Assembly: GCA_024278135.1 (NCBI GenBank)
Contig: JAJRTU010000022.1
Span: 1-44,692, forward strand
Direction of reading: 5' to 3'
From: Gammaproteobacteria bacterium
GTDB taxonomy: Bacteria; Pseudomonadota; Gammaproteobacteria; Eutrophobiales; Eutrophobiaceae
DNA length: 44,692 bases
Under the pieces are notes generated by a model, which saw nothing but the letters and a program-made list of their open reading frames with translations, ran no database searches and was not told where the DNA came from. The position numbers and the translations under genes are program-made. Below, one piece after another: positions 2,857 to 13,475 of this stretch (positions within the stretch are counted from its first letter, which is position 1; every line of letters starts with the position of its first letter).

Positions 2857-4259
2857 TAACTTGACAGTACCCCTCCGTTAACCTGGCTCAGAAAGGCTTG
2901 TCTGTGCTCAGGCGAGTTGATGTTATCTGCAAGCTTGTTACACAAATCGGTCCAGTCGACGGCTTTGCTCTGCGCCCGAAGAATAATTCGGGATGCCAGT
3001 GGCCCGACATGTTGTGCCAGTAAACGGGTGAGGTTTTCCAGTTCGAGGGCAGACAACTCGACGTTGGGTGCTGGTTCTGAGGCTTCGCTCGTGTTTGCTT
3101 CAATCTGCGAGTGCATACCTGTCTGGGTCAGCTCGCTTGCGGTAATTGATGTTCTGAACTGAGTCTGCTCCTCGGCAGAAGGTATGTGGGCGGCTAGTGC
3201 GTCAAGCAATTGATTGATGTCTACGCATTCATTCGCATGTTTCTTGATGAGCCGTGATGCCATTGGTCCGACATAAGGGATCAGAGCCTGCTCAAGCTGT
3301 GTGATCACTGTAGGCGACAGGGAAGCGGGAGTCCGGCTTTTCGACGAAAGGTGTGCTGGAATCGGCGCTCTGACGGCAGGAGCATGTTGGGTTCGCAGAA
3401 CGGTCGCGGAAAGTTCTTCGGTGTCTGGAATGTGTTGCCCTTCAGGCGACACTATCGTCGCCAGTTGTTGGGAAAATTCACTGGCATTCTGGTAACGCGA
3501 TGCAGGGTCGGCCTGCAATGCAGTTAACAGTGACTGCAGTGCTTTGTCGGCGACAACAGGGTCTGTGATGGCACTGGTAATTTAAGCTTTGAGCAAGGCA
3601 GGTTCAAGCTGGCGTCCCGGTCCCAACCGTTTTCCGGTGAGCATCTCATACAGTACTACGCCAACGGCATAGAGGTCGGAACGAGCGTCGGTTTCGCCAC
3701 GCTGACCTTCCGGTGACATGTAGCTGGGGGTGCCAAGCATAAGTCCTGCCTGGGTAAGGTCAGAGTTTTCCAGGCGTGCAATCCCGAAATCCGCAACTTT
3801 TACCTGACCGTTTTCCAAAACCATGATATTGGCCGGTTTGATATCGCGATGAACTACACCGTTGCTATGTGCGTATTCCAGTGCGCTCAGCACCTGGATA
3901 GCAATATCCACCGCCTGTCGGAATTCAATCTGCTTTTCGCTTCGTAGCAGGGTTTTCAGGTCAACGCCTTCAATGTACTCCATGACAATATAGTGTGCGC
4001 CATCACTGATCCCGTAGTCGAATACGGTGACGATATTACTATGCATGCAGCGGGCTGCGGCCTTCGCTTCTTGCCGGAATCGAACCGCCAACTCGCCGCC
4101 CATGTCATCGTCGAGTAGATGGCTATACAGCACCTTAAGCGCAACCGGTCGCTCGATGTCTTCATCATAACCCTTGTAAACCACACCCATTGCACCCTGG
4201 CCGACAGCGTTGTCGACACGGTATTTTCCAAGGTGAGAGGGATTCTGATCAGCGGGCAT
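2856..4259 (-). pseudogene. Membrane-less Ser/Thr protein kinase (Hanks type) interrupted by one in-frame TAA
   Basis: The first 225 residues are a PknB-like kinase lobe pair: glycine loop GQGAMGVVYKG (20-30), ATP lysine K42, helix-C E64, catalytic H137-R-D139 with K141 and N144, DFG 157-159, and MSPE (181-184) as the APE equivalent. A TAA at 3584-3582 ends this part after EPALLKA. The same frame continues without a break (ITSAITDPVV, then TALQADPASRYQNASEF, subdomain XI with its conserved Arg) to 2856. Past the kinase the tail holds two copies of a helical motif, ALIPYVGPMASRLIKKHA and LLAQHVGPLASRIILRAQ, resembling the DUF8082-like repeats seen after some bacterial kinases. No transmembrane segment. 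Without readthrough the catalytic domain lacks its last helices and is probably dead; an independent downstream TTG start at 3518 is possible but unlikely. It is the last gene of a three-gene minus-strand group. Confidence 0.85.
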
Positions 4260-4301
4260 GTATAAACACTATGCTGTTGCCTGGGCTATATAGTGAGTCG
4301 A

Positions 4302-5183
4302 TCAGCTTTCGGACTCATCAAGCATTTTCAGGGCATTGGCAAGGCTACGGTGCATACGATTAAAGGATTGTGCCAGAGATGAAATCTCATCATTGCCCTT
4401 GACCTCCAACTCAGCGGCATCCAACGCACCCATGCTGACTTTGTTAGCATTCTCCGCCATGCTTTTCACTGGCTTGATGACGATCAGCTGCAGCAGAATG
4501 TTCAACATCAGGCTAATCAGAACAAAAACCGCAATCATCGAAGTCATAAATACCCGGAATGTAGCGTCAGCGCGCTGCAAAGGTAGCGACATGGGCACGG
4601 AAACGATCTGTGCCCCGATCACTTCATTCATCTGCCAGCCAAAGCCATTGGCTGTGCCATAGCTGTCGATCATTGTTTGTGGAGCATTGGACGGTGTGCT
4701 GTGGCATACCAGACAGGCCTCATTGGTAATCTGAATGGGGTGGCTGAGGTACAAAAAACGCCCTGTTGGCGTATCGCGTTCTCCGATCAGCTCCTTGTCA
4801 TCCGGTTTGTTACGGAACCATTCAACAATATCAACCTCCCATCCCGTCGCCCGGTCAACCGGATTGGTGGGGTTCAGCGTGGCTTCCTTGTAACTGTAAT
4901 CGGGGTACTGAACCTGCAGCTTGTCTATATATCTGCGTGCTGAATAGGCCGGGACAGTTTGTGGCAGGAACTGACGTTTCTGTTGTAATGCCAGTAGCGG
5001 GCGAATTTCAGAAACAGTGTAGCCACGTACAGCGCGGGCGCTCTCCAGCATGATACGTGCGCTATCAAGCACTTCTTCACGGGCATTCTGCTGAAGAAAA
5101 TGATGTGCGAAAACCCCTGAAACCACGATCCCCAGCAAGGTGGTGAAACCGAAAATAAGGTTGAATTTTAGTCTTAATGACAT
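4302..5183 (-). CDS. Tll0287-like (DUF3365) heme-binding sensor with HAMP domain, no output domain
   Basis: A 293-residue inner-membrane sensor. TM1 at about 8-28, a periplasmic DUF3365/Tll0287-like domain with a c-type heme motif C157-L-V-C160-H161, TM2 at about 212-234, then a HAMP linker (about 235-285) ending NRMHRSLANALKMLDESES. The family binds heme through CxxCH and is thought to sense redox state or small gases. The protein stops after HAMP and a short coiled helix: no kinase, cyclase or methyl-accepting domain follows. The next gene, 42 bp downstream, is a Ser/Thr kinase, and a lipoprotein gene lies 41 bp upstream, so the three probably share a transcript and the kinase is the likely partner (inference). 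Confidence 0.88.
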   Translation of the reverse strand: MSLRLKFNLIFGFTTLLGIVVSGVFAHHFLQQNAREEVLDSARIMLESARAVRGYTVSEIRPLLALQQKRQFLPQTVPAYSARRYIDKLQVQYPDYSYKEATLNPTNPVDRATGWEVDIVEWFRNKPDDKELIGERDTPTGRFLYLSHPIQITNEACLVCHSTPSNAPQTMIDSYGTANGFGWQMNEVIGAQIVSVPMSLPLQRADATFRVFMTSMIAVFVLISLMLNILLQLIVIKPVKSMAENANKVSMGALDAAELEVKGNDEISSLAQSFNRMHRSLANALKMLDESES

Positions 5184-5224
5184 GGGATCATCCTGTTCGT
5201 TGATGGGCTGTAATTGCGGCAGGC

Positions 5225-6043
5225 CTACATTCGGTTGCAGGCGCGAAGCGCCAGGATAGCGGTCTGGAAATCGGCCAGGGTGTAACTGACCGAGCGAGTT
5301 TCGGTGATCGGCCAGGTAGGCCAGAAGCCAAGGCTGACCACCATGCCCGGGCTGCTTGCCATGCGTGCATACAGCGCAGGAACATCATCACCTGAAACTA
5401 TCGCAGTTGTTTCTTTAAAGAGTCTGTCAAAGGGGTGCAAGGTGTCTTCACCGATACGGATACCGGTGCCGGGATACTTGAGGTCAATGTTGGAATCGGC
5501 GCTGACGTAGATCGAATCAAATGTAAGCAACACCTGAACATCTGTCGTTGCGTAACCATCCGGTATATTCACAGTCTCCGAGGTCAGTATACACTGGGTT
5601 TTTTTCGTTACTGGATTGAGGCGCCGATCCAGGCTCCACTGCGTACCGAATGACAGAGGTAATGACTCAAGGTCAAGATGCATGATGTCCACGCGTGTAA
5701 AGGCAGGTGCCTTTCGCGGCGTAACGGTTGTGCTGGCAGGCTGAGAAGGTTTGGCTTTGGTTCTGGTTTTAGTGACGGGCTTTGACTTTTTAACAGTAGC
5801 TTGCGTGTCGTATTTCGGAAGGTCCAGCCGGCTTTTGGGTTTATTGGGTTCTGCGGGTGCCGGCGATACAACGACCTTGGGCGGCGGCTTTGTTACATGG
5901 CGATCCGCCCGTACGGGTGATGCGCTGTCATCGTGCACTGATTGCGTCATGCAGCCCGACAGCAGCCAAAGCAGCGATGCCAGTAGCAGGGTTATAGTTG
6001 CTATGTTCGTGTGTAAATAGCTCGCTCTGTAAACAGTATGCAT
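5225..6043 (-). CDS. Putative lipoprotein of unknown function
   Basis: A 272-residue protein with a hydrophobic signal segment (ATITLLLASLLWLLSGC) ending in a lipobox LLSGC, so Cys31 is the likely lipidation site. Residues about 40-110 are a Pro/Lys/Thr-rich linker (SPAPAEPNKPKSR, KTRTKAKPSQPAS), as in proteins that cross the peptidoglycan. The C-terminal half (about 115-272) is folded-looking, with two cysteines (KKTQCILT and ALRACNRM), aromatic strands (SIYVSADSNIDLKYPG, VVSLGFWPTWP) and no family I recognise. It is first in the group with the DUF3365 sensor and the kinase. Its start codon follows a G8 tract that doubles as the ribosome binding site. Confidence 0.7.
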   Translation of the reverse strand: MHTVYRASYLHTNIATITLLLASLLWLLSGCMTQSVHDDSASPVRADRHVTKPPPKVVVSPAPAEPNKPKSRLDLPKYDTQATVKKSKPVTKTRTKAKPSQPASTTVTPRKAPAFTRVDIMHLDLESLPLSFGTQWSLDRRLNPVTKKTQCILTSETVNIPDGYATTDVQVLLTFDSIYVSADSNIDLKYPGTGIRIGEDTLHPFDRLFKETTAIVSGDDVPALYARMASSPGMVVSLGFWPTWPITETRSVSYTLADFQTAILALRACNRM

Positions 6044-6045
6044 AG

Positions 6046-6061
6046 CCCCCCCCTTTTTTTT
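6046..6061 (-). promoter_or_regulatory. A8G8 homopolymer tract as ribosome binding site
   Basis: On the minus strand eight A are followed by eight G, then CT and the ATG of the lipoprotein gene (6043). The G run is the only Shine-Dalgarno-like sequence. Slippage in it would alter SD strength and spacing. Confidence 0.55.
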
Positions 6062-6492
6062 ACATGCTTACAAGTGACTGCAACGACTCTTCAAAACGGC
6101 CGGATTGGCCGCAGTATAGACCATTAAACCTTAAGAAACCCAGAAGAAATTTGTTGGCAAGCAAACGCTGTCGAAGATGTATGAAGCGAATTTCAGCGTG
6201 CTTTGGTGAGTATTGCTTTTGGCTCTCAGGCATACAGCTCGCGCACTGCCTCTCTTGGCTGTTATTGAATGTCCTCGACTTGCTCATCACCAGTCGGGTG
6301 TTCACGTTCGTCCGGAATGAGTGTTCATCTTGAGCCGGAATATGCATGAGTAGCGCATTAAATTCTGCATCGGCTTTAATGGTGACTGTTTTCATAGCGC
6401 ATGAAACTTCATGTCTTGAGTGATTCTCCTTGATCAGGGGGAAAATATGCAAAGCACTTCAGATTTATACGATGCAGCGTATTTATTGACAT
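6062..6492. other. Gene-poor interval with a possible antitoxin stub
   Basis: About 430 bp with no secure gene. On the minus strand an ATG at 6394 opens MKTVTIKADAEFNALLMHIP, which looks like the head of a small ribbon-helix-helix or related antitoxin, but what follows (to 6060) has no family resemblance. A good AAGGAG lies about 25 bases upstream and would first serve a 6-codon ORF overlapping the 6394 start. I read this as a decayed or recombined antitoxin head, with low certainty. Confidence 0.3.
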
Positions 6493-6512
6493 TATACGGT
6501 CAATCGTATAAA
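6486..6512 (+). promoter_or_regulatory. Promoter/operator of the HipB-like gene
   Basis: TTGACA at 6486-6491 and TATAAA at 6507-6512 are 15 bp apart. Overlapping them is a dyad, TATACG (6493-6498), 6 bp, CGTATA (6505-6510), similar in plan to HipB operators (TATCC-N8-GGATA). It suggests an autoregulated antitoxin-type promoter. Confidence 0.55.
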
Positions 6513-6523
6513 GAGACGATGTG

Positions 6524-6670
6524 ATGGGAAAAATCATACGCAACAACAAAGACCTCGGTGAGGCAATACGCCTGGCACGCAAAAATCAGGATTTACGGCA
6601 GGTTGATGTGGCCCAAAAAGCATCCGTCCGGCAGGCCCTGATCTCAGATCTTGAGAACGGTGCGACCTGA
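6524..6670 (+). CDS. Truncated HipB-like XRE HTH regulator
   Basis: A 48-residue protein, MGKIIRNNKDLGEAIRLARK followed by NQDLRQVDVAQKASVRQALI and SDLENGAT. This is the DNA-binding helix-turn-helix of HipB-type antitoxins, which normally continues NP.W.TL...ALG for another 20-50 residues. Here a TGA follows ENGAT and, two bases later, the yggL start begins. The join suggests that foreign sequence replaced the 3' end of the gene. No hipA kinase is present. The dyad over its promoter is intact, so the stub could still bind DNA, but dimer stability without the C-terminal strand is doubtful. Confidence 0.65.
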   Translation: MGKIIRNNKDLGEAIRLARKNQDLRQVDVAQKASVRQALISDLENGAT

Positions 6671-6672
6671 TT

Positions 6673-7002
6673 ATGTCGAAGAACCGAAACCGCAGACTGC
6701 GCAAGAAACTCCGTGTCGGTGAATTTCAGGAGCTTGGGTTTGAGGTAGAGATTCAGATCTCGGACAACGTTGACATGGATGTGCTGGTGGGCGAATTTCT
6801 GATAGAAGTTCTGGACAATAACGGGATGATGTTCGGAGGAGGTTATGACAAGGACGAGGGCTGGCTCAGAGGCTTTGTGACTAAAAGGGGTCGGGGGACG
6901 CTGACAGAGGAACATCGGGCCATCGTGAAAGACTGGTTCGCATCCCGGCAGGAAGTCAAGGAATTTGAGGCCAAATCCCTGGTCGATGCATGGCACGGAT
7001 GA
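6673..7002 (+). CDS. yggL: YggL family (DUF469) ribosome-associated protein
   Basis: A 109-residue protein beginning MSKNRNRRLRKKLRVGEFQE and ending WFASRQEVKEFEAKSLVDAWHG, the full length of Escherichia coli YggL-type proteins, which associate with the 50S subunit. Basic N-terminal tail, then the conserved LGFEVEI, LVGEFLIEVLDNNGM and GGYDKDEGWLRGFVTKRGRG segments. It starts two bases after the truncated HipB-like gene and may be read from that promoter. The last 140 bases and a few beyond recur 5280 bp downstream as a degraded copy. Usual yggL neighbours such as trmB are absent, consistent with a transferred copy. Confidence 0.92.
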   Translation: MSKNRNRRLRKKLRVGEFQELGFEVEIQISDNVDMDVLVGEFLIEVLDNNGMMFGGGYDKDEGWLRGFVTKRGRGTLTEEHRAIVKDWFASRQEVKEFEAKSLVDAWHG

Positions 7003-7008
7003 GATGAT
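6861..7008 (+). repeat. Direct repeat, left copy (3' end of yggL)
   Basis: Matches 12141-12288 at 138 of 148 positions in the same orientation, by my base-by-base count. The two copies are exactly 5280 bp apart. Confidence 0.9.
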
Positions 7009-7082
7009 GAAATGGGCGTTTGTTCGACATATACTCACGCCTTCTTCCTTCAACAGGAATGGGGCATGGCGCCCGGATCCAG

Positions 7083-8162
7083 ATGAATCTTCCCCCATTG
7101 GCAGGGCGCAGCCCCGTCAGTAGTACCCTGATGACCGCCGCCGCCCTGGTGATTGTGATCGCCGGTATGCGAGAGGCGCAGGAGTTGCTGGTTCCTTTCC
7201 TGATGGCCACTTTCCTCGCCGTCATCGTGATGCCGGCGGTGCAGTTCATGGTGTTCCACCGCATTCCCACTTCCATCGCCATCCTTCTGGTCATGTTGCT
7301 GATCCTGGGAGGTGGCATGCTGCTGGGAGGCATGGTGGGTGGTTCGGCCGATGACTTTTCAGCCCAGCTGCCGGTCTATCAGCAGAAGTTTGCCGAGATG
7401 ATCCAGGGCCTGCAGGTATGGCTTAACAACAACGGCCTGGTCCTGAGCGAAGCAACCGTCTCTCGCCTGCTCGATCCGGGCAAGGCGATGAATATGGCGG
7501 CACAGGGGCTGAGCAGCCTCAGCGGCCTGCTGACCAACGCGTTTCTTATTTTGCTGACCGTGCTGTTTATCCTGTTCGAGGCCTCCGGCTTTCCGGCCAA
7601 GCTGCACAGGATTCTGCCTGATCCACAGAACGACCTGCGCCATATCGAGCGTATGCTGAACGATGTAAAGCGTTATATGGCGATCAAGACCCTCACCAGC
7701 CTGCTTACCGCGCTTCTCATCTACCTGGCGTTGCTGGCGCTGGGTGTGGATTTCCCTTTGTTGTGGGGCATGATTGCCTTCTTTCTCAACTATGTACCCA
7801 ATATCGGTTCGCTGATCGCCGCCGTACCGCCGATCCTGCTGGCGCTGGTGCAACTCGGCACGGTTTCAGCGCTGTGGACCGCCGGTGTCTACCTGCTGGT
7901 CAATAACCTGGTCGGCAACGTCATCGAACCTCGCTTCATGGGGCGTCGACTCGGTCTTTCTACCCTGGTCGTGTTTCTCTCTCTTGTATTCTGGGGCTGG
8001 GTGCTGGGACTGATCGGCATGTTCCTGTCGGTGCCGCTGACCATGACGCTGAAGATTGCCCTGGACAGCCGCGACGATACACGCTGGATCGCTGTCCTGC
8101 TGGGCTCCGAAATTGATGATGAGCCCGCCCCGATACCCGGGCTGCCGGCCGACCGGAGCTGA
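7083..8162 (+). CDS. AI-2E family transporter-like membrane protein
   Basis: A polytopic inner-membrane protein of the AI-2E exporter family (PF01594; relatives include YdiK, PerM and TqsA), about 359 residues. Evidence: N-terminal hairpin of two long hydrophobic helices (STLMTAAALVIVIAG, VPFLMATFLAVIVMPAV), a soluble middle with an amphipathic stretch (FAEMIQGLQVWLNNNGL), and the conserved C-terminal block ALGVDFPLLWGMIAFFLNYV then PNIGSLIAAVPPILLAL and NNLVGNVIEPRFMGRRLGLS. Substrate unknown. The frame is open from a TTG at 7020 but the first good start is the ATG at 7083; 7059 is an alternative. It converges with the beta-helix protein gene, with only 34 bp between stops. Confidence 0.85.
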   Translation: MNLPPLAGRSPVSSTLMTAAALVIVIAGMREAQELLVPFLMATFLAVIVMPAVQFMVFHRIPTSIAILLVMLLILGGGMLLGGMVGGSADDFSAQLPVYQQKFAEMIQGLQVWLNNNGLVLSEATVSRLLDPGKAMNMAAQGLSSLSGLLTNAFLILLTVLFILFEASGFPAKLHRILPDPQNDLRHIERMLNDVKRYMAIKTLTSLLTALLIYLALLALGVDFPLLWGMIAFFLNYVPNIGSLIAAVPPILLALVQLGTVSALWTAGVYLLVNNLVGNVIEPRFMGRRLGLSTLVVFLSLVFWGWVLGLIGMFLSVPLTMTLKIALDSRDDTRWIAVLLGSEIDDEPAPIPGLPADRS

Positions 8163-8196: not shown

Positions 8197-11100
8197 TCAA
8201 CTGCCCCCGGGTCGCCTGAACAGTTTTCGGGATGCAGTTATCAGGATAATCGGCCATGCAAGCCAATGAAGAATGATGACCAGGTTTGCATATTCTTCCG
8301 GATCGCCAACCGGAAAATATACCTGGCCCGAGTTGGCTGCATCTTTATAGACCACAAGCCTGTTCCCGTTGGTCGGTTCCCATTCATCCCTGGCCGTGAA
8401 GAGTACGACAGGAACATGGAAGCGGATAGCTACCCAGAACCCGTCCCAGATGCCCCAGCCGGTCGGGTGCTGGTTATTTGTCAGTGAAGTGTTGGTTGCG
8501 GCCAACGCCTCTTCGGATGGTGCAATGTTGTCATTGATCGAGAACAGGTAAACGGACAGCGAAAACCACAACAGCATCACGATAACCAGGCGCCATGTTG
8601 TAGTGCCGTATTCGGTAAAAAAATCCAGTGGAAGATGCGGCAGCGAGCGAATATGAAACCATATTTTTCTGAACACGGAGCCACTTGCACGCGCCGCCTG
8701 TTTCTCGGTTTCCCGAACCCAGCTGCGCATGGCCTTGTGCACGCTGTCTGCCGCGTCTTCGTAGCCGCGTTCATAGAGGCTGTTTTCCACTGCGCGCCAG
8801 GTATGCCGTTGCTTGTTCGGGTCTTTGGCAAGCAGGGCGATATAGTCGTCAGCATTCTCGCAACTGGTATTGCCCGAACGGTGAAACTCCCACCACTTGA
8901 TTTCGGCAAAACGCAAATCGATCGGACAGGGAAAGCCATCATCCACTGTTACTGATAATTTTTCGACGCTTGCCTTGTTGAGCAGTATTCCCCGTTTCTC
9001 CAGTGATTCATTGTCGCAGGGTGACTTGAAGTATTTGTACGAAATCGACAACTCACCCAGTTTGCTGGAACTCAGGTCCAGTCTCCCCGGGATCAATGCC
9101 GAAGCACCTGCATTGTATATGTTCAGCGCGCCATCAACAGTGATGCCCTGGGCAAGAATAGATGACTGCCCCGGGATCTCGACCGGTAGCGGTCCGGAAA
9201 CCAGAGTCAGGCCGGACAAGTCGATATTCCCGCCACATTGCATGCCGGTCATGTTCAGCATGGCGATTTTGGCAGGTGGATCCAACGGCCCGAATGTCAT
9301 GCACAGGTCCTGTTTAACCAGGGCATCTGACAGATCAAGCTGACCCTCGGGTGCTATTACGTGCGACAAATCCAGGTCGCCGCCAATACTGGCCTTGGAC
9401 AGGTTGATCCCGCGAGGTAAGGTGGCTGCTGATGTGCGTGCTTCAGAATGTTCTGCGTGCTCGTACAGCGTGAGGTTGCCTTTTACGGTAATTCGCCGGA
9501 GCACGAGTGAGTGCGGCGTATCGGTATCGATTGTGTTGGTGGTTATGCCGATGAAGCAGGCATCTCCATCAATGACCGCATCCGGGAATTCGATGTTTCC
9601 TCCCACTTCCACCGGTTCGTGGCATACATCCGGCCGGTCATCATCAATGATAACTGTCTCACGGATTTTGACTTCCCCGATACGGGCCCCTGGTGCATGC
9701 AGGTTCCCGCCGATACGGCAGCCGCTGATTTTGAGAGCCTGTGGCGCGATAGCGCCATTAAGCAGGAATGTCCCGCCAATATGGTTACCCATGCCGGGTG
9801 TTTGTGGTGCTGCAACAAAGATGCCGGTGCCCACCCGTACATAGGTTGCGTTAAGCTCGCCGGCGATATCGATGCCGCGAAACGCCAGAAAATTGTGCTT
9901 TATAACCGTTCCATATAACGAAAGGCCTGATGATGTACCGTCATCATCCCAGTGCCCGATCCGCACAGGCCACTGATCATGTTCATTTTCGCTGGCTTCA
10001 AAGGCTATATACTGTTCTACGTCGCCATAGGTCATATCCAGCGCATCGTGGATCGTTACGCCCTGCACAAAAACACTGCGGGCCTTGATGTATTCGATAT
10101 CCGCCCAGGCATGCACATAAAACGGTCGGTGTTCGCTTGCCAGCGTTAGAACGCCCCCTATAGCGCTTTCCCGCATTGACAGCACGCCATAGGCGGTATA
10201 GTCGGAAATCCGGACATCGTCACGGATGGACAGGCCATTGGCTTGTAACCCGCGCTGGCAACTGGTGCGGACAATCTCCACGGACTGGGCACTGAGGCTG
10301 AGCATCTCCAGAGAACGCGCAGTACTTTTGCCTGCAAGAAATACCGTGTCCGAAATCGACAGTACATGATTGATATTGGCATGTGTGAGTGTCAATCCAT
10401 TTTCAAACACACACGCGGTTATGTTCAGGTTCGAGGCGCTATCGATTGAGGCAAGGTTTGCGTGCCCCCGAAAGCGACAGTTCCGAAAGCACAGTCCCCC
10501 TCCGAGGCTGACTCCTTCCAGGTCCAGGTTGCCGAATATGACCCGGTTCGAGATGACAAGCATCCCCTTGTCCAGGGCCGAAACGATGTGTTCTGCCAGA
10601 GAGGCGGCATCGCAAGGTACCAGTGCCTCCTGGCTCTTCTGCTGTTGCCAGGTGCTCAGGCTGTTCAATGCGAGAGGCATACGCAGATAAGGGTGGGTGG
10701 AGTAGCTTTCGTGAGCCGGAAATGACATCAGCATTTCGGCATCTGTCACTTCGATATCGCCATTGGCCATGACGCGCATTGTGAATTCTATAATTTCATA
10801 GCCTTTCCATTGGCACGTGCTGACCAGCCAGCTGTTATCGTCCCGCCGGGCCTGTATCGGCCTTATCCGGTTCCAGGCTTCTTCCACGGACAGCCCGGGT
10901 CGTGGTGTCATGGATTCGATATCAACGTCAGCGAAACGCGGGTGCCGGCTGTCTTCCACAGTCAGGGAGGGTCCATCCTCGTCCCAGCGGTATTCGCCGA
11001 GGAAGCGTACATACTCGCGTACAGATAATTCATTGCCAAGTTCGGAGTGCAGTGCATCCGAATATCTCTCGTAGAGCCGTTGAATGGATGCGTTGTCATG

Positions 11101-12039
11101 GTGAATGAGTTGTATATCGCCGGGTGACCAGACCACATCTGCCACGTGCTCCAGGCCGTCATAGGGGCAGCTGATTTGATACAGGAACTGCCGATAGAAA
11201 GGCAGGTACTTGCGCCGTACCGAGCAGTACTCCGGGGCTGGAACAGGTTCCAGGTTCCGGAATACATCCTGGAGTAACGCGTATTTTTCGTCGTCATCGC
11301 TAACCGTGATCCAGCCACAGTTCTGACTGGTCGCCGTATCATCAGCAAACATTGCTGCCCAGGAATCTGCTGGAATTGTGTAGTTGTCGGGCAGAGAGGT
11401 CAGGAGAACCTGTTCGTTCTCGTCACTCAGGTTGAGGTCACCTGCCGGTGCCTGCGTCGAACGGTATCCGTTTTCCACGAAGAATGTGATGCGCTTGAGC
11501 TTGTCTTCCTCCAGGACGCATGCGCTTACTTCAAAACGACCGTTTGTGCCATCCGTGTGAACCTCCAGCGGGCAGGCTTCGAGCGCAGCCGAGATCCTGT
11601 TTTGTTCCTCTTCCATAAGGTCTGTGTGCCAGCAGACATCGGAAGGTGTCTCGACCAGTATGTGACCGTGTATGTTGCCCCACACCCCAAGGAAAAATGC
11701 GACATAGTCAGGAACGGTATCCCGGTCGAGTATCAGCCGGTCCGGATGGCGGGCGATGTAGTCGAGAAACGAGTTTACGCCGGAAATATCCGTGCGTTTC
11801 AGAACTGCCACCTCACCATCATCGCGGGAGTAGCAACCGAGGTATGCAGGGGACTGCTTGCCCGGTACCAGGGCTGTAGCCCTGAAGATGCAGGTTCGAT
11901 CCCGAAAAAAGGAAGGTGACCAGACGGATAACAGGGTTAACTGCTGTTGTGGAACCTCCAGTGCCGTTGCCAGGCCGGACACCAGGCTGGAAGTTTCTTC
12001 GGGCGTAAGCTCAATATTTTTGTCTTGTATGAACCGCAC
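8197..12039 (-). CDS. 1280-residue beta-helix repeat protein with C-terminal two-helix channel-like domain
   Basis: The true start is a GTG at 12039 (VRFIQDKNIELTPEE), preceded by AAGGAG at 7 bases; the frame is open further upstream but that part is antisense to a yggL fragment. Three parts are visible. Residues 1 to about 480 are a soluble region I do not recognise, acidic and rich in Trp and Cys. Residues about 500-1080 are a long run of pentapeptide-like, right-handed beta-helix coils (VIFGNLDLEGVSLGGGLCFR, LNITACVFENGLTL, INLSKASIGGDLDLSHV, RLDLSSSKLGELSI). After a helical stretch (WRAVENSLYERGYEDAADSV) come TM1 (about 1147-1169), a re-entrant-like loop GFWVAIRFHVPVVLFTARDE, and TM2 (about 1250-1270). 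The last part resembles the two-helix ion-channel-like ends of some pentapeptide-repeat proteins; some homologues are loosely named membrane-associated oxidoreductases. No signal peptide. Function unknown. Confidence 0.8.
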   Translation of the reverse strand: MRFIQDKNIELTPEETSSLVSGLATALEVPQQQLTLLSVWSPSFFRDRTCIFRATALVPGKQSPAYLGCYSRDDGEVAVLKRTDISGVNSFLDYIARHPDRLILDRDTVPDYVAFFLGVWGNIHGHILVETPSDVCWHTDLMEEEQNRISAALEACPLEVHTDGTNGRFEVSACVLEEDKLKRITFFVENGYRSTQAPAGDLNLSDENEQVLLTSLPDNYTIPADSWAAMFADDTATSQNCGWITVSDDDEKYALLQDVFRNLEPVPAPEYCSVRRKYLPFYRQFLYQISCPYDGLEHVADVVWSPGDIQLIHHDNASIQRLYERYSDALHSELGNELSVREYVRFLGEYRWDEDGPSLTVEDSRHPRFADVDIESMTPRPGLSVEEAWNRIRPIQARRDDNSWLVSTCQWKGYEIIEFTMRVMANGDIEVTDAEMLMSFPAHESYSTHPYLRMPLALNSLSTWQQQKSQEALVPCDAASLAEHIVSALDKGMLVISNRVIFGNLDLEGVSLGGGLCFRNCRFRGHANLASIDSASNLNITACVFENGLTLTHANINHVLSISDTVFLAGKSTARSLEMLSLSAQSVEIVRTSCQRGLQANGLSIRDDVRISDYTAYGVLSMRESAIGGVLTLASEHRPFYVHAWADIEYIKARSVFVQGVTIHDALDMTYGDVEQYIAFEASENEHDQWPVRIGHWDDDGTSSGLSLYGTVIKHNFLAFRGIDIAGELNATYVRVGTGIFVAAPQTPGMGNHIGGTFLLNGAIAPQALKISGCRIGGNLHAPGARIGEVKIRETVIIDDDRPDVCHEPVEVGGNIEFPDAVIDGDACFIGITTNTIDTDTPHSLVLRRITVKGNLTLYEHAEHSEARTSAATLPRGINLSKASIGGDLDLSHVIAPEGQLDLSDALVKQDLCMTFGPLDPPAKIAMLNMTGMQCGGNIDLSGLTLVSGPLPVEIPGQSSILAQGITVDGALNIYNAGASALIPGRLDLSSSKLGELSISYKYFKSPCDNESLEKRGILLNKASVEKLSVTVDDGFPCPIDLRFAEIKWWEFHRSGNTSCENADDYIALLAKDPNKQRHTWRAVENSLYERGYEDAADSVHKAMRSWVRETEKQAARASGSVFRKIWFHIRSLPHLPLDFFTEYGTTTWRLVIVMLLWFSLSVYLFSINDNIAPSEEALAATNTSLTNNQHPTGWGIWDGFWVAIRFHVPVVLFTARDEWEPTNGNRLVVYKDAANSGQVYFPVGDPEEYANLVIILHWLAWPIILITASRKLFRRPGGS

Positions 12040-12140
12040 GATTTTTCTCCTTTTCGGTATTCTTGGCTTTTTCCGGAGAGACGTCAATGCAGCACAAGAG
12101 CGTGTTGTCCTGAGGGGGGCAGGCCTGGGCTTGATGACCT

Positions 12141-12288
12141 CTGGATCAGAGGCTTTGTGACAAAAAGGGGTCGGGGGACGCTGACAGAGGAACATCGGGC
12201 AATCGTGAAAGGTTGGTTCGCATCCCTGCAGGAAGTCAAGGAATTTTAGGCCAAATCTCTGGTCGATGCATGGCACGGATAGGATGAT
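12141..12288 (+). pseudogene. Degraded 3' fragment of yggL (right copy of direct repeat)
   Basis: Encodes RGFVTKRGRGTLTEEHRAIV then KGWFASLQEVKEF, after which a G-to-T change turns the Glu codon into TAG. No 5' part of yggL precedes it. It is 93 percent identical to 6861-7008, so it came from a recent duplication or a second related import. Its antisense strand provides the last 17 codons of the Fic gene. Confidence 0.9.
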
Positions 12289-13402
12289 TGATTGAGCTTA
12301 AATTCACTACATAGCGAGTGCTGCGTCCACCACCGGTTTGTTTTAATGCGCCTGTCTCAGCCAAATACTGAAGATCGCGTGTGGCAGTTGCCTTTGAGAC
12401 ACCTGTTATCGATACATATTTCTTAGCGCTCATGCCACCCTCAAAACCCTGTGGACCTTCATCAAGCATACGCCGGATGACCTTGATATGTCGTTCACTC
12501 AACTGATCTTTGAAGTGGTCAAAGAATTCTGTCTTGCGAAGAATAAAATCAATTTGTGTTTCAGCCTCACATTGGGCATTGAGCACAGCCGCCACAAAAT
12601 AGTGTATCCACGAGGTTATTTCGTTTGATTGCTGTGCATTTTTCAATGCACTGTAATACTCTTTTTTATTAGCCTCAATTGTTTTTGAGAGGCTTAAAAG
12701 AACAGGACGACCTAACCCTTGCGATAAGGCTTTTTCAGACAGGGATCGTCCAATGCGTCCATTGCCGTCCTCAAACGGATGGATGCTCTCAAAATATAAA
12801 TGAGCAATTGCAGAACGGACGGGAGCTATATTAATTTCCTGGCTTTTGCCGGGGGCCGTGTTATTAAACCACTGAATGAATGCTTTCATTTCCCTGGGCA
12901 CACTCTCAGAGGCGGGGGCTTCAAAGTGAATTTTCCATTTTCCAATAGGTCCGGAAATAACCTGCATGGGTTCTTTATGTGCACGCCATGCTCCGGTCTT
13001 TATTTTTCCGGATTGCCCCATCATTAGCATTTTGTGCCACTCGAAGAGCTTTTTTTTGGTTAACGGACTGGAAAATGTATGGCGCACATCCATCATCAGG
13101 TCGGCTACTCCTTTTGCTCTTTGATCATGAATATTTTTAGGGGTTTTGTTCAAGCCAAAATTATTGCGAATGGACGACATCACGTCCTCGCGACTGAGAT
13201 ATTCGCCTTCAATTTCTGATGTTTTGACAGCTTCAGATACCATGAGATCGATAACGGCCTCGGTCTGCATTGATTCAGGCAGACTTTTTAAAACACCGCT
13301 GACTTGCCCTGTCTTCTCGGCAAAGGAGAATAAGGCATCCTGAATTCCGGAAAGATCGTATCGGAAATCAGGCCAGTCTGATTGTTGCCAGTTATACTTC
13401 AT
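12236..13402 (-). CDS. Class II Fic family AMP-transferase with C-terminal winged helix
   Basis: A 388-residue Fic protein. The active-site loop H208-PFEDGNGRIGR219 matches HxFx(D/E)GNGRxxR in full, so it should transfer AMP (or reverse that) on target hydroxyls. The inhibitory motif T61-SEI-E65-G66 lies N-terminal to the Fic core, which makes it class II, self-inhibited. Also visible: the flap-like VISGPIGKWKIHFEAP, and at about 300-370 a winged helix (YVSITGVSKATATRDLQYLAETGALKQ) suggesting self-regulation at the DNA level. The final residues INHPIRAMHRPEIWPKIP are translated from the antisense of the yggL fragment, so the native stop has been lost and the tail is an accident of the junction. 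The start codon overlaps an operator-like dyad. No separate antitoxin gene is adjacent, as expected for class II. Confidence 0.93.
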   Translation of the reverse strand: MKYNWQQSDWPDFRYDLSGIQDALFSFAEKTGQVSGVLKSLPESMQTEAVIDLMVSEAVKTSEIEGEYLSREDVMSSIRNNFGLNKTPKNIHDQRAKGVADLMMDVRHTFSSPLTKKKLFEWHKMLMMGQSGKIKTGAWRAHKEPMQVISGPIGKWKIHFEAPASESVPREMKAFIQWFNNTAPGKSQEINIAPVRSAIAHLYFESIHPFEDGNGRIGRSLSEKALSQGLGRPVLLSLSKTIEANKKEYYSALKNAQQSNEITSWIHYFVAAVLNAQCEAETQIDFILRKTEFFDHFKDQLSERHIKVIRRMLDEGPQGFEGGMSAKKYVSITGVSKATATRDLQYLAETGALKQTGGGRSTRYVVNLSSINHPIRAMHRPEIWPKIP

Positions 13403-13475
13403 GAGCCGATTGTATTCCCTATTCGGCTCATATCAAGTAAATAAGTGAGCCGATAACAAGGATGTATTCGGCTCA
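13401..13475. promoter_or_regulatory. Two-dyad operator overlapping the Fic start
   Basis: Four half-sites of the form TGAGCCGA(A)T: 13402-13410 direct, 13421-13431 inverted, 13445-13453 direct, 13466-13475 inverted. They form two dyads about 45 bp apart on centre, and the first covers the Fic start codon. The winged helix at the Fic C-terminus is the obvious candidate binder (inference). Confidence 0.65.

Follow-up and report, generated by a model that had tools for sequence, protein, structure and literature searches.

Pentapeptide repeats are among the scaffold-forming parts of biological conflict systems (PMC7159879), a category that also takes in NTPase and MoxR-vWA systems of the kind discussed below (PMC7159879, PMC8195603). 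The pentapeptide repeat proteins (reviewed in PMC8145042) have in common with the full-length relatives of the protein described here a pentapeptide-type beta-helix signal; the protein itself departs from them in its irregular, sub-threshold coils, its membrane tail and its possession of domains that we name M. Also close are proteins of ~480-770 aa annotated as 'membrane-associated oxidoreductase', which lack M, whereas the protein described here carries two copies, and with which C-terminal identity is very low (10-20%). The Streptomyces proteins WP_331761355.1 and WP_331748403.1 share with it, in this order, a probable beta-helix, a hairpin of the form PQPYEQLA..R..G...A and two predicted transmembrane helices (2TM) with a proline-containing loop. 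Finally, loci in which M accompanies nSTAND1 and ankyrins, or MoxR-vWA systems and ankyrins (L011, L030, L044, L110 and L113), have the M domain in common with our protein but are NTPase- or chaperone-based and mostly possess a DotN-like neighbor, neither of which is present here.

The protein, of 1280 aa, is encoded in a 44,692-nt stretch of gammaproteobacterial DNA (contig JAJRTU010000022.1), hereafter the window. What is new is the domain architecture that it gives to a known family, together with a recurrent and apparently unnamed domain (M), 'unnamed' meaning that M is missing from the libraries and literature searched and that an earlier description elsewhere is possible.

The gene and its genomic context

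The giant open reading frame that a first-pass annotation of the sequence placed at 8197-12039 is intact: on the minus strand it runs for 1280 codons with no internal stop. Its natural start is the GTG at 12039, with AAGGAG at 12052-12047, seven bases ahead. The same frame remains open upstream as far as 12276 because it passes through the duplicated fragment of another gene, and the full-length relatives start, as judged by eye, at about the same point as this GTG. Base composition resembles that of the window, and searches of Pfam, NCBIfam, PADLOC and PDB sequences returned no significant family match for the product. The gene and the features of its product are:

8197..12039, minus strand: gene of the 1280-aa protein, GTG start, stop codon included (open frame, AAGGAG)
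11440..11958, minus strand: first M domain, strongly diverged, about residues 28-200 (i-E 2.6e-5 over residues 60-190 with a profile of the remaining members)
10705..11247, minus strand: second M domain, about residues 265-445 (i-E 3.4e-6 over residues 272-438; alignments)
8872..10584, minus strand: probable pentapeptide-like beta-helix, about residues 486-1056 (Pentapeptide_3 of relatives, alignments, model)
8695..8817, minus strand: TPR-like helical hairpin 'Y..v...L...G...A..v', about residues 1075-1115 (conserved in alignment, weak TPR matches)
8530..8601, minus strand: predicted transmembrane helix 1, residues 1147-1170 (hydropathy, charges, helix in model)
8296..8529, minus strand: loop between the helices, predicted periplasmic, residues 1171-1248 (alignment, charges)
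8227..8295, minus strand: predicted transmembrane helix 2, residues 1249-1271 (hydropathy, charges, helix in model)

The M domains and the tail are well supported, and the rod is moderately supported. The surroundings comprise:

6861..7017, plus strand: left direct repeat, the 3' end of yggL, which is intact here (6673-7002)
7020..8162, plus strand: AI-2E family transporter (Pfam, 1.2e-60)
12141..12297, plus strand: right direct repeat, a decayed yggL 3'-end fragment that contains an in-frame TAG

The direct repeats seen at first pass on both sides of the gene are 157 nt long and 91% identical. Between them lie only the AI-2E transporter gene and the 1280-aa gene, with no integrase gene, and with repeats at the end of a target gene the arrangement looks like an insertion at the yggL 3' end; a partial duplication is a possible origin of the repeats. 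The yggL gene is absent from 40 genomes of the family. That the 1280-aa gene is accessory, as had been proposed, is supported by a search of 57 further genomes from its genus, family and class, which returned no match to its product.

The gene could be viewed as a decaying or selfish passenger with motif-less M copies, kept only because a small repeat-flanked insertion carried it in, and the strong divergence of both M copies and the adjoining decayed yggL fragment would fit such an origin. The 1280 intact codons, the good ribosome site and a base composition close to that of the surroundings speak against it, and we consider it improbable.

At 12236-13402 on the minus strand is a gene for a Fic-domain protein (DUF4172-Fic), with a GC content of 0.443 vs 0.53, whose last codons enter the decayed yggL repeat. 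Further away, at 3582-5183 on the minus strand, a short protein kinase adjoins a Tll0287-HAMP protein.

The N-terminal M domains

Full-length searches among relatives, plasmids, viral contigs and named genomes yielded no homolog, and a class-wide search found one in just 1 of 368 other genomes, a 1236-residue protein (L003). Homology was extended through this distant relative and then through its middle module, which led to the module, here called M, with which a STAND-ankyrin protein of 1706 residues ends. By profile and alignment, the N-terminus of the 1280-aa protein is two diverged copies of this ~170-residue domain, at residues ~60-190 and 272-438: a profile built from members other than the 1280-aa protein matches it at E 1.9e-13 (database of 2000), against a lowest E of 0.54 among 2000 shuffled sequences. 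The first-pass view that the N-terminal 480 residues resemble no recognized family stands as far as Pfam, NCBIfam, PADLOC and PDB are concerned, but the region is two copies of a recurrent domain and not one block.

Of 398 genomes from the phylum, 11 contained M, and in alignments its members display the common pattern lpFY ... LNGtSPPIHexNA ... YLRFFc.fVrGdEGpF ... Ysna.LF.a.F ... GmiEM.dD. The LNGTSPPIHexNA motif (SPPIH region) is missing from both copies in the 1280-aa protein. No M domain was found in phage records or, with the single pattern that the alignment allowed, in IMG/VR contigs.

Structure prediction, suggested at first pass for the N-terminus, succeeded for M (pLDDT 93.9, pTM 0.90) but for 1031 residues of the 1280-aa protein gave a model too poor for detailed interpretation (mean pLDDT 53). 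In that model, the second M domain has the same order of strands and helices as M. Searches of the PDB and of viral models with the M fold returned nothing at E 0.001 or better and matched no enzyme fold; weak matches to the two-cystatin protein latexin would at most suggest a cystatin-like duplication. An enzymatic fold, which would have counted against the earlier proposal, was not found for M in the PDB and viral models.

The probable beta-helix rod and the predicted membrane tail

A long beta-helix had been proposed for the middle of the protein, and such a rod is supported, though not proven. In favor are significant Pentapeptide_3 matches in full-length relatives (2.6e-7 and 3.4e-8) and in a relative split into two genes (L035, 1.3e-13), together with a strand-rich model of 1031 residues. 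In the 1280-aa protein, however, Pentapeptide_3 (residues 518-564, E 0.011) falls below the Pfam threshold, and sequence periodicity is not above that of shuffles, giving no regular repeat period. The model, whose mean pLDDT denotes low confidence, has as its nearest PDB entries mostly beta-helices, none of them significant (best E 0.23); our structure models were made without the full-length relatives in their alignments. The 'knotted solenoid' of the literature proved on checking to be unrelated.

Hydropathy identifies only two hydrophobic helices, 1147-1170 and 1249-1271, and no hydrophobic stretch at the N-terminus. A K/R-rich stretch precedes helix 1 and a K/R-rich tail follows helix 2; positive and negative charges number 8 and 4 before helix 1, 4 and 8 in the loop, and 4 and 0 after helix 2, so that positive charges flank both helices on the sides predicted to be cytoplasmic. 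The protein is predicted to be membrane-anchored through these two helices and is without a described function, as the first-pass annotation had held. Over its last ~230 residues it shows homology to the C-terminal part of the 'membrane-associated oxidoreductase' family (hhalign probability 95.9%, E 5.7e-9); a shallow profile comparison was not convincing and a deeper one was. On its own, the 1280-aa protein matches the C-terminal family profile at E 1.3e-5, the best of 2000 block shuffles being 0.19. Three residues, Gly1092, Ala1097 and Pro1210, do not vary across the family alignment, a semi-hydrophobic loop segment around Pro1210 is conserved, and the helical hairpin gives weak TPR matches in the beta-helix-2TM family.

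The tail had also been likened to an ion channel, and on such a reading the two helices would assemble with the proline-containing loop into a pore that depolarizes the membrane, making the protein a pore-forming or channel effector. The two-helix topology and the conserved segment around Pro1210 are compatible with such an activity, as is the location of a paralog in the same genome near a TrkA_N+RyR protein with a hydrophobic two-helix-like start. Yet none of 12 family C-termini matched an ion-channel family even at E 10, the C-terminal family profile found no channel in the PDB, and the alignment contains no selectivity-filter-like motif. The presence of two hydrophobic helices was thus borne out and channel homology was not; an Ion_trans_2-type two-helix channel was rejected on the lack of a channel-family match and of a selectivity filter, and a pore-forming role in general appears unlikely.

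Relatives of the protein

Two relatives (L028 and L029, from genomes G874 and G800) have the M-rod-tail layout of the 1280-aa protein, with 21-22% identity to it over rod and tail, and in a third (L035, genome G508) M and the rod-tail portion occupy two adjacent frames. These relatives retain the M motif (LNGSSAPIH, LDGSSTVMH), in contrast to both copies in the 1280-aa protein. The survey of their neighborhoods that had been recommended found no defense island: the loci are unrelated to one another, the neighboring genes are those of ATP synthase, thiolase/PHB and similar ordinary metabolism, and PADLOC returned only generic kinase-type matches and a few other single ones. Nor do these homologs occupy conserved core housekeeping loci.

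Beyond these, beta-helix-2TM proteins are widespread and often encoded by solitary genes, although some have caspase and CU044_2847 genes as neighbors. Those carried by Streptomyces plasmids bear the annotation 'oxidoreductase' or 'membrane-associated oxidoreductase', and these database names would be the ground for regarding the 1280-aa protein as a membrane oxidoreductase. Pfam, NCBIfam and the family C-termini reveal no recognizable redox or enzyme domain in it or its relatives, however, and on this basis we rejected the identity as highly improbable; the family name is apparently an inherited misnomer.

The same genome encodes a second beta-helix-2TM member, of 771 residues and without M. 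Beside it (L144, contig C198) lie genes for a TrkA_N+RyR protein and a TIR-like protein (4941-6695 and 9699-13466); the former opens with its own hydrophobic two-helix-like region, and the latter contains a hydrophobic helix and long YD.hGN-type repeats resembling BurrH in the PDB.

The M domain in other systems

Named genomes yielded 154 loci matching M, and the best 80 of these 154 belong almost entirely to Micavibrio-type Alphaproteobacteria, in which M is a free 206-residue chromosomal protein with a conserved place, in many loci near rnpA-, yidC- and engB-like genes (named by reading of the sequences). As a conserved stand-alone chromosomal protein in Micavibrio, M is therefore not specific to conflict systems. 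Elsewhere it is fused to nSTAND1 and ankyrins, or to nSTAND1 and TPR-like repeats beside a SIR2-TIR gene; ankyrin-M proteins adjoin genes for MoxR-like AAA and CoxE-like vWA proteins; and an M gene may follow an nSTAND1-ankyrin gene or an Hsp70 gene. On a Sinorhizobium plasmid, an ankyrin-M gene has a patatin gene as its immediate neighbor, and 6 kb further on lies a gene for a caspase.

These distributions bear on the possibility that the protein serves as a membrane-attached scaffold in housekeeping of the envelope or of transport, linked for example to the neighboring AI-2E-type transporter, with no part in defense or competition. The ordinary neighborhoods of the full-length relatives, the conserved Micavibrio M beside rnpA-, yidC- and engB-like genes and the widespread, often solitary beta-helix-2TM family would all suit such a role. 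It accounts less readily for the sporadic occurrence of the 1280-aa protein, the position of its gene at an apparent repeat-flanked insertion and the fusion of M to STAND and vWA systems; we regard it as a possible, if somewhat improbable, alternative.

Two M loci have further features of their own. At L031:13133-16772 (minus strand), a SIR2_2-TIR_2 gene adjoins the nSTAND1-TPR-M gene, forming a candidate conflict system. The M-bearing protein at L037:9019-10104 (minus strand) has an N-terminal B-box-like Cys/His finger, recognized by reading of the sequence, and its gene adjoins those of two ~560-residue proteins whose starts look hydrophobic.

Proposed function

We propose, with a probability of about 0.42, that the 1280-aa protein is an accessory, inner-membrane-tethered scaffold or sensor-effector. 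The two C-terminal helices would form a membrane-anchoring hairpin that leaves both ends of the protein cytoplasmic, and the beta-helix rod would rise from it via the helical hairpin, presenting the two M domains at its tip as a recruitment or regulatory module, a role that we infer from the presence of M in STAND- and MoxR/vWA-type systems. When the cell is challenged by a phage, a mobile element or envelope stress, the M/rod part would bind a partner, and the assembly would then act at the membrane.

This mechanism draws on the anatomy of the protein and on gene company, from which the topology, the binding role of M, the trigger and any effect on the membrane are inferred; the gene, its domain order, the homologies, the repeats and the accessory character are established by the analysis. 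The anatomical support for a tethered scaffold comes from the M homology, the full-length relatives with the same layout and the two-gene split, as well as from the C-terminal family homology, the flanking positive charges and the lack of an N-terminal hydrophobic stretch. Gene company adds the association of M with nSTAND1, ankyrin or TPR repeats, SIR2-TIR, MoxR-like AAA/vWA, patatin and caspase, and that of beta-helix-2TM relatives with caspase, CU044_2847, TIR-like and TrkA_N+RyR proteins. The proposal is weakened by the ordinary neighbors of the full-length relatives, the loss of the motif from both M copies, the free Micavibrio M, the low-confidence beta-helix model and the window itself, in which no DotN-like or other partner gene was seen. 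The first-pass suggestion of a defense or competition cargo fares similarly: the company kept elsewhere by M and the beta-helix family makes a defense role plausible by analogy, but the neighbors of the full-length relatives are ordinary, and the 1280-aa protein matches no PADLOC component model.

M and type IV secretion components

In four loci an IcmJ/DotN-like gene is convergent with the M gene, with gaps of -4 to 33 nt:

L011:7761-8705, minus strand: IcmJ/DotN-like gene abutting the M gene
L044:8528-9223, minus strand: IcmJ/DotN-like gene abutting the M gene
L110:8570-9547, minus strand: IcmJ/DotN-like gene abutting the M gene
L113:8530-9285, minus strand: IcmJ/DotN-like gene abutting the M gene

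In seven Micavibrio loci, an IcmJ/DotN-like gene lies 5.7-7.4 kb from the stand-alone M. A broader and rather doubtful generalization is that M is a previously undescribed adaptor or sensor domain of new fold, common to STAND, MoxR/vWA and DotN-linked loci and to the membrane beta-helix family, of which the 1280-aa protein might be a one-gene, NTPase-free, membrane-acting member. The protein connects a common membrane family without known function with an unnamed domain found repeatedly in NTPase systems of immunity-like type. Should this connection prove functional, M would offer a handle for identifying what several such systems bind and what triggers them, and the pairs of M and DotN genes would be directly testable. 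At L034:7994-10197 (minus strand), a gene for a VirD4/TraG-type coupling protein overlaps an M gene at its end, which connects M with components of type IV secretion a second time, after DotN.
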